Source: Thermosynechococcus sp. M46_R2017_013 (lineage in GTDB: Bacteria > Cyanobacteriota > Cyanobacteriia > Thermosynechococcales > Thermosynechococcaceae). From it: a DNA stretch of 35,593 nt. Every line of letters begins with the position of its first letter. Within the stretch, counting starts at the first letter, position 1. This document shows positions 5,328-21,149 of this stretch, in pieces. The notes below the pieces were generated by a model. That model did not search any database, was not told the DNA's origin, and saw only the letters and a program-made list of their open reading frames with translations. The stretch lies in the NCBI GenBank assembly GCA_015296025.1, contig DVDZ01000047.1, positions 1-35,593 of the forward strand, written 5' to 3'. A program made the position numbers and the translations under genes.

Positions 5328-5389
5328 TGCGTTCTTTAATTACTTAGGCTAGGTTTGTATATTCACTGTAAAACGCTGTGGTCAGAATA

Positions 5390-6145
5390 TTATCGGTGAG
5401 TGAACATGCTTGTCCACTGTTGGTGCAGCGATCGCAATAGGGGCACATCCACATAGGTTGCCCAGCCCACTTCCCCGCGAATTACTTGAAAGGGGTACTC
5501 GGGTTCCCCTAGGCAGTCCAAGACAAGTGCTGCATCGCGAAAATCATGCTCCTTGGTATAGTCGGTGATCGTGACAATGGTTACCAGACGACTGGCGGTA
5601 GCCGCCTGAATCCCATTGGCCGAATCCTCAAAGGCAAGACACTCCTGAGGCGAGAGGCGCATTTTTTCAAGGGTGTAGAAGTAAATATCGGGGGCGGGTT
5701 TCTTGGCTGGCACGACATCCCCGGCGGCAATCATCTCAAACCAGCTGACACCATCAGCAGCAAGGGCATTTTCAAGCAGTGCTGTGACATTGGCAGGGGT
5801 GGTCGTGGTAGCGATCGCCAAACGTAAGCCTACTTCACGGGCTTCGGTCAGCAATCGTTTCACCCCCGGTCGCAGAGGAATAGCTCCTTGCGCCAATAAT
5901 TCTGTATAGTAGCGGGTCTTGGCCTTGTGCAAATCGGCAATCAGGGCATCCAAATTTTGGGGACGGGGCCAATCGGGGCGAAAACGATCAAGGTAATATT
6001 TCATCCGCTCTTTGCCCCCAGCCACCGCCAGTAGTTGGCCATAGAGGGGAACATCCCACTCCCAATCCAGACCCGCCGCCGCAAAGGCTTTATTGAAGGC
6101 AACGCGATGGCCATCCCGCTCCGTATCGGCTAGGGTACCATCCAC
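5390..6145 (-). CDS. cbbY: CbbY-like HAD phosphatase, 5' end frame-broken
   Basis: HAD-superfamily phosphatase resembling CbbY, which dephosphorylates xylulose-1,5-bisphosphate, a misfire inhibitor of Rubisco. Blocks shared with CbbY are TLADTERDGHRVAFN, GLDWEWD, AVAGGKERMKYYL, LRPGVKRLL, LAIATTTTPANV, MIAAGDVVPAKKPAPDIYFYTL and CLAFEDSANGI. The lysine in KKPAPDIY and the FEDS acid are HAD motifs III/IV. The uninterrupted frame begins only at a GTG (6145) inside the DxDGT motif. As read, the product therefore lacks the nucleophilic aspartate and the first strand. An ATG at 6174 opens MAQLKA and stops at TAA (6154-6156). Adding one C to the CC at 6157-6158 joins MAQLKA to LIFDVDGTLADTE, the expected N-terminus. 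Either the gene is a fresh pseudogene or one base is missing from the sequence. Confidence 0.88.
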   Translation of the reverse strand: MDGTLADTERDGHRVAFNKAFAAAGLDWEWDVPLYGQLLAVAGGKERMKYYLDRFRPDWPRPQNLDALIADLHKAKTRYYTELLAQGAIPLRPGVKRLLTEAREVGLRLAIATTTTPANVTALLENALAADGVSWFEMIAAGDVVPAKKPAPDIYFYTLEKMRLSPQECLAFEDSANGIQAATASRLVTIVTITDYTKEHDFRDAALVLDCLGEPEYPFQVIRGEVGWATYVDVPLLRSLHQQWTSMFTHR

Positions 6146-19595: not shown

Positions 19596-20234
19596 ATGAT
19601 AACTGCTCGTCGTGTTGCCCGTGAATTGGCTTTGCTCAGTGCGGCTCAGGTGTTACGCCAACCGAAACTGCTCGATGAAAGTGACTGCCGCAGCTTAATC
19701 CTGATGGCGGTACGTACACTGGCGAGTGATGTGCGCGATACCCTCGAACAGGCTGCCACCGAATTAAGTGACAGTCAGCGACTGCTTCGCCACAGTGAGT
19801 TTCAGTTGCCCCACCTCGAAAAGGCACAAGTGGTGCTCCAAGACGCCCTCCAGCGGGCGGAAAAGGGTTTGAATAAAATAGGCACTGCCCTTGATCTGCC
19901 CGAGATTCTGTACTTTGCCCACCAAGACGAAGTCCAAGCCTACGCGATCGCCCTCCTGCGCTGTTTGCAGCGGTATCGGGCCGAGATTGAGGATTTGGTG
20001 AACCGCTCAATGGTAGATTGGCAATTGGAACGACTCACGCAGTTGGATCGCACGATTATTGAAATTGCCGTAGCAGAGATGCGCTATCTTGATGTAGCCA
20101 AGCAAGTGGCGATTAATGAGGCCATTGAACTGGCTAAACGCTACAGCGATGAAGGCAGCCACCGATTTATTAATGGTGTGCTGCGGCGAATCAGTGAAGC
20201 CCTCGACACGGCTCAGGCGGCCACGGGTAATTGA
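19596..20234 (+). CDS. nusB: Transcription antitermination factor NusB
   Basis: RNA-binding all-helical protein that joins NusE (S10) on boxA in rRNA operons to prevent early termination. The N-terminus [18 protein letters not shown] and the C-terminal block [26 protein letters not shown]...[26 protein letters not shown] are classic NusB (seen in shorter pieces). At 212 residues it is longer than the 139 of E. coli because of an insert of about 70 residues between the two halves, which is usual in cyanobacteria. ATG 19596 has GAGG 9-10 bases upstream. Its 3' end overlaps the opposing gene by 22 bp. Confidence 0.94.
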
Positions 20235-20647
20235 AACGACTGCCATAGTTGCTGTCGCCCTAACTCCACATCCTCAGACCGACATTGCCAGTTAGGATGG
20301 GCACTCATCACTAAACTTTCGAGAGTTTCCCGATCAAAGAGATGCCAAACAGGGGCACCCTCAACAGGGTGGGCGATCGCCAGTAAATTTTCAGCCACAC
20401 AGTGAATTTCTAAACAGGTGGCCGCCCGCTGAATTTGCAACTGCTGCCCCGGTAGGAGCGATCGCACCGCCTCCATGATCTCCCGCAGTTCGGAGATACT
20501 CTGGACACAGACTCCTGGAAGAGCCACCCGCTGCTGGGGATTCCCGTTAATTTGCAGCCAATAATGACGGCTGGGATCAATCCCCAAAAGCCAAGGATCA
20601 ACATCATCTAAGCGATAACGGGGAGCCAAGGAAAGTCCGTGCACCAT
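20213..20647 (-). CDS. Conserved hypothetical protein, convergent with nusB
   Basis: A 144-residue soluble protein that I do not recognise. It has no signal peptide, membrane helix or metal motif. Segments include [44 protein letters not shown] and [24 protein letters not shown] (in pieces); the composition is ordinary coding. ATG at 20647; its stop lies inside the end of nusB (22-bp tail overlap). The upstream region has a plausible promoter and two perfect inverted repeats (see 20673-20721), which suggests specific control. Confidence 0.68.
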
Positions 20648-20672: not shown

Positions 20673-20721
20673 TCTATATCCGGCGATCCCTAGGGATCAC
20701 ACTTCCCTTATGTAGTGTGAT
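20673..20721 (-). promoter_or_regulatory. Putative promoter with overlapping palindromes, upstream of the 20213-20647 gene
   Basis: On the minus strand GTGTGA, an 18-bp spacer and TATAGA (20678-20673) could form -35 and -10. Two inverted repeats lie on top of it. One is the perfect 14-bp palindrome GATCCCTAGGGATC (20685-20698). The other is ATCACACT (20696-20703) paired with AGTGTGAT (20714-20721) across 10 bp. The two repeats share three bases. The layout fits a repressor or activator site, or alternative hairpins. Confidence 0.4.
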
Positions 20722-20859
20722 AAGTCTCCCTTATTTGATCAATCAAACTTAATAATGCTTAATCTTTTGTCAATAGTTGTTAACAAACCCCCGTTTCTTA
20801 ACCAGCAAGATCACGATTTTGTTATTTTGTTACAGCAGCTACGGGAGCCTAGGAAAAAT

Positions 20860-20889
20860 TAGTTAAAATAAAGTTAAGAACAGGTTAAT
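20860..20889 (-). promoter_or_regulatory. Pho-box-like triple direct repeat upstream of the 77-aa gene
   Basis: Read on the minus strand: ATTAACCT (20889-20882), CTTAACTT (20878-20871) and TTTAACTA (20867-20860), each separated by exactly 3 bp, for an 11-bp period. The cyanobacterial Pho box bound by SphR is described as three 8-bp repeats of the form PyTTAAPyPy(T/A) spaced by 3 bp. Two copies match fully and one mismatches at its first base. The ATG of the 77-aa gene is 26 bp away on the plus side. Confidence 0.45.
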
Positions 20890-20915
20890 TTCTGAGGGAA
20901 AAGGATAGGTAAGCA

Positions 20916-21149
20916 ATGAATAAATACGAATTTTTACATCCCCACAGCCGTTACCACGGTGAGTTTACACCCGAAAACTTTTTATTTGATGCCAACTTGC
21001 AGGAATTTGCCACGCGAGTGAGCTACATTTCTGGTCTTGAAAACAGTGGTAAGCTCTCCCCCCAAGAAGCCTACAAGCAAATTAAAAATCTTTGGAAAGA
21101 ATTAAAAGCCAGCAAAAAATGTTTATTAGATAGCACCCCCCCTAGCTAA
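20916..21149 (+). CDS. Small conserved cyanobacterial protein (DUF7219-like)
   Basis: A 77-residue soluble protein resembling a small cyanobacterial family that I recall as DUF7219. Recognisable pattern: [58 protein letters not shown]. Function unknown; it looks like a small helical protein. ATG 20916 is preceded by the A/G-rich GGGAAAAGGATAGG region, which supplies a ribosome site. Its TAA stop overlaps the opposing aroB stop (bases 21147-21148 are shared). A Pho-box-like repeat lies just upstream. Confidence 0.75.

Follow-up and report, generated by a model that had tools for sequence, protein, structure and literature searches.

A conserved triple Pho box over the likely promoter of a DUF7219 gene in Thermosynechococcus, a probable site of repression by SphR

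In Thermosynechococcus sp. M46_R2017_013, a repeat that resembles a Pho box lies between a gene for a small conserved protein and a minus-strand gene. Which of the two genes does it control, and does it turn its target on or off in phosphate starvation? We addressed these questions using a stretch of 35,593 nucleotides (referred to below as the window) and related genomes. The reading that we favor, with a little more confidence than doubt, is that the repeat is a conserved operator of the SphR type which represses the gene of the small protein, a member of the DUF7219 family, in phosphate starvation.

The repeat and its probable regulator

The repeat occupies positions 20860..20889 on the minus strand. 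Its three units, ATTAACCT (20889-20882), CTTAACTT (20878-20871) and TTTAACTA (20867-20860), read ATTAACCT-gtt-CTTAACTT-tat-TTTAACTA on that strand, with 3-bp spacers and a period of exactly 11 bp, which confirms the triple 8-bp repeat described in the initial annotation. The array agrees with the published consensus of the SphR unit, YTTAAYYW (PMC13226834), at 23 letters out of 24, the mismatch being the first A of ATTAACCT; it does look like an SphR Pho box, as had been proposed from its near-perfect fit to the cyanobacterial site. In Synechocystis, the binding of PhoB/SphR requires each of the three TTAA cores (PMC11126600). We predict from pattern searches and from the consensus of the flanks that the array is an SphR operator.

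The pattern TTAACNTN4TTAACNTN4TTAAC, with up to 3 mismatches, occurs once in the 35.6-kb window, at 20860-20889 (the mean is 0.03 in dinucleotide shuffles), and the same site is the sole exact match across the 2.4-Mb genome. TTAA is a frequent word in AT-rich spacer DNA, where such a repeat might arise by chance, but this explanation is contradicted by the shuffles, by the controls at other periods and by the conservation of the array amid otherwise diverged DNA (see below), and we give it almost no credit.

All of the 16 array-bearing genomes that were searched encode an SphR-like response regulator, with 55-74% identity outside the genus. The protein of the genus combines a receiver domain with a DNA-binding domain of the PhoB type, and the gene after the sphR orthologue of G018 encodes a kinase that matches HisKA, HATPase and, weakly, PAS; on the basis of these domains, of the neighboring kinase and of the known features of the family, we take this protein to be SphR. 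In the window's own draft genome, unlike in its relatives, the sphR-like frame is not intact, as it contains a frame change and a TGA (L236, about 1440-1460; G000:C36, about 5353-5955), which may be an assembly error.

Conservation of the array and identity of its target

The array ends 26 bp before the ATG (20916) of the DUF7219 gene and lies about 213 bp from the start of the minus-strand ORF (20647); both distances had been given correctly in the initial annotation. The DUF7219 gene (20916..21149, plus strand) codes for 77 amino acids. The small conserved protein mentioned in that annotation is a clear member of the Pfam family DUF7219 (PF23856, E 2.3e-30), which it matches with 104.4 bits, compared to a gathering cut-off of 27, and a 95% identical protein exists in Thermosynechococcus sp. 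M98_K2018_005. It has no match in NCBIfam, and a sequence search of the PDB returned nothing meaningful. The AlphaFold2 model (mean pLDDT 86) predicts that helices 19-43 and 49-71 form a hairpin. The search of the PDB for similar folds gave weak helical hairpins only (best E 0.5), with RNA polymerase chains leading; the superposition on a hairpin of the beta-prime subunit covers about 47 residues, with a TM of about 0.58 and about 26% identity, and is not significant (E near 1). We draw no conclusion from these matches, since any two-helix hairpin can score so.

In each of the 11 genomes of the genus (11/11), TTAAC-N6-TTAAC-N6-TTAAC with at most 1 mismatch marks the DUF7219 promoter and no other locus; in G028 it does so with two matches that overlap. 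The other DUF7219 groups that were inspected in the genus (L012, L030 and L031) have no array. In the alignment of the upstream regions of nine close orthologues, the units form distinct blocks of conservation, and in L009 an insertion of exactly 11 bp upstream of DUF7219 creates a fourth unit, in phase. The spacing of the repeat, whose persistence in close relatives the initial annotation had suggested checking, is therefore retained.

The minus-strand gene (20213-20647), whose product has no Pfam match, is divergent from DUF7219 in the nine closest orthologue loci. It could be the gene that SphR activates from this operator: the array is forward relative to it, and published SphR boxes reach as far as -403 (PMC1906773). 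However, the array is kept before DUF7219 in G026, G019 and G018 (L011, L029 and L013), between -56 and -26 or between -47 and -17 relative to the start codon, and in these genomes the nearest long upstream ORF is co-directional with DUF7219; it is also kept in other families, where the ORF nearest upstream is co-directional in many cases, and a long conserved stretch separates it from the minus-strand gene. The persistence of the array where the upstream gene differs indicates that it belongs to DUF7219. Activation of the minus-strand gene is thus very improbable, and this gene is rejected as the main target. The initial annotation had left the choice between the two genes open; the small protein stands and the minus-strand gene does not. 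A side effect of the array on the latter may occur. The conserved stretch itself, at 20700-20780 (GTAGTGTGATAAGTCT, TTAATAATGCTTAA), is probably the control region of the minus-strand gene.

Across the phylum, DUF7219 is found in 144 of the 386 genomes sampled. Outside the genus, 18 of 121 non-redundant DUF7219 upstream regions contain a reversed triple GTTAA of period 11, up to 2 mismatches being allowed; in the same regions, the counts at other periods are 0-2, and shuffles give 0.15 on average and 2 at most. A second sample, of 79 named DUF7219 loci, contains 14 reversed arrays of period 11, compared to 0-2 at other periods. Among the 14, one is from Thermosynechococcus itself, and others are from Symplocastrum, Microcoleus, Trichocoleus, Chlorogloea and Alkalinema. 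Some loci may be in both samples, and related species do not count as independent. Forward matches of period 11 number 7 in the 121 regions and 5 in the 79 loci, and most are probably identical sites read through GTTAAC. The distance from the array to the DUF7219 start is 100-200 bp in some other families. The majority of DUF7219 genes outside the genus have no array, and in the gene tree (few columns, weak support) the array-bearing genes are clustered, not in a single clade. We note that six genomes of one genus (G116, G374, G272, G118, G257 and G329; L087-L092) carry a different, near-identical triple, TTAACCTTTTGTTAACYYAAGCTTAAC.

Many PhoB-like regulators are encoded in the genomes studied here, and it may be asked whether the array is the operator of another member of the OmpR/PhoB family, with an 11-bp period and a similar core. 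Against this, the flank positions that were not used in the selection of the arrays outside the genus give AGGTTAAR, whose reverse complement is YTTAACCT, the SphR unit, and the sphX/pstS box of the genus uses the YTTAACCT unit too. We consider a regulator other than SphR quite improbable.

The sign of the regulation

The likely promoter of DUF7219 coincides with the array. The sole plausible candidate for a -10, TAAAAT (20864..20869, plus strand), sits inside the first array unit, and TANNNT is kept at this position in 11/11 genus orthologues. A sigma-70 promoter with both hexamers has no match in the region. Between the array and the ATG, the 26 bp contain a likely ribosome-binding site, AAGGA (20901..20905, plus strand; AAGGATAG is kept in close orthologues), and no visible -10 candidate. 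The transcription start would be near 20877, under the array.

An SphR site has been reported for sphX of T. elongatus (PMC1906773). In 11/11 genomes of the genus, a triple box precedes one gene of the sphX/pstS type, and it is always forward; the DUF7219 array, conversely, is reversed and points away from its gene. SphR boxes that activate are described as overlapping the -35 or preceding it, and the boxes near the -10 of urtA as repressing (PMC13226834). The DUF7219 array is neither forward nor placed at or upstream of the -35, the -10 used as reference being itself a candidate.

We argue that repression is more likely than activation, since the array is reversed compared to that of sphX/pstS, no -10 is visible downstream and the array overlaps the likely -10. 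In the mechanism that we propose, the three units, at their period of 11 bp, would be occupied in phosphate starvation by phosphorylated SphR, which would block RNA polymerase at the DUF7219 promoter and so repress the gene; a block is proposed because the likely -10 and start point lie under the units, which also face away from the gene.

The alternative is activation of DUF7219 by SphR in phosphate starvation, with an array that acts from a reversed position on a promoter that we fail to recognize. Most known SphR targets are indeed activated (PMC13226834), and in two loci outside the genus, L261 and L112, a TATAAT-like hexamer is present within about 12 bp downstream of the array, which would fit activation there. 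For the gene studied here, the orientation of the array, the 26 bp to the ATG devoid of a -10 candidate and the position of the likely -10 inside the array make activation unlikely, and the phosphate-starvation small protein suggested in the initial annotation is doubtful if it is taken to be an induced one. Outside the genus, -10-like hexamers are also found in phase with the units, which is merely suggestive, because TAAAAT requires just AAT after GTTAA. In the papers searched, we found neither start-site maps nor phosphate expression data for Thermosynechococcus.

A possible nitrogen input and comparison with known systems

If DUF7219 is repressed by SphR, what turns it on? An NtcA-like site, GTTACAGCAGCTAC (20829..20842, plus strand), is located 21 bp before the TAAAAT. 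It reads GTT-N8-TAC and departs from GTA-N8-TAC. ChIP data show GTN10AC to be the core of NtcA sites that is strongly conserved (PMC3898017). This core is found at a spacer of 21 or 22 in 10/11 genus orthologues (the site is partial in L007 and absent from G018); among them are L011 and L029, whose upstream DNA otherwise differs and for each of which the chance of finding it at spacers 20-24 is about 0.02. Class II NtcA promoters have GTAN8TAC 20-24 bp before TAN3T, and the DUF7219 promoter of the genus looks like one of them. Outside the genus, this geometry is found 5 times at DUF7219, compared to a mean of 1.2 and a maximum of 5 in shuffled sequences, which is no clear enrichment.

With an apparent class II layout and an SphR-type array at one promoter, DUF7219 would be expressed when nitrogen is in demand and shut off when phosphate is lacking, in a manner similar to that described for urtA of Synechocystis. 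The latter is reported to be activated by NtcA and repressed by SphR (see PMC13226834 on the boxes near its -10). This precedent is disputed, because another study found no SphR site at urtA (PMC1906773). In the urtA promoters of the genus (L326-L332), GTA-N8-TAC is followed by a unit of the YTTAA type over the likely -10, where NtcA and SphR-like signals would overlap; the spacer to TAACCT is 23 bp in 4/6. A wider hypothesis, that we put forward tentatively and hold less probable than its opposite, is that DUF7219 is a nitrogen-on, phosphate-off small protein under a reversed SphR array that embeds its -10, and that the arrays present in many families represent an ancient part of the Pho regulon that acts by repression and has an uncharacterized helical-hairpin protein at its center.

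We found no published description of the DUF7219 array, the supplementary tables of PMC1906773 aside. According to this article, these tables contain high-scoring SphR sites at many conserved hypothetical genes, and sphX ranks second among the T. elongatus sites; the DUF7219 site may already have been predicted there in 2007. The predicted site links to phosphate control a widespread and uncharacterized cyanobacterial family. If the array is repressive, it would provide a second and clearer case, beside urtA, of SphR as a repressor and of nitrogen and phosphate signals converging on one promoter.

How does this promoter compare with those already described? The window protein belongs to the DUF7219 family, only part of which bears the array. 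The array resembles the SphR Pho box (CTTAACCT / YTTAAYYW) in unit sequence, 3-bp spacers, number of units and presence of SphR in the genome, and differs from it in orientation, which is reversed with respect to the gene, and in position, since it covers the likely -10 rather than lying at or upstream of the -35. Like the sphX/pstS box of the genus, it is a triple unit of period 11 bp that is conserved in 11/11 genomes; that box is forward and has a degenerate middle unit (of the TTTTCCCT type), and in the genomes of this genus the DUF7219 array is the closer of the two to the consensus of SphR. Last, the urtA promoter shares with that of DUF7219 an NtcA-type site, a spacer of 21-23 bp and a TAN3T inside a YTTAA-type unit; however, urtA has a perfect GTA-N8-TAC and one good unit with at most a weak second one, in the forward orientation, whereas DUF7219 has GTT-N8-TAC and three good units, reversed.
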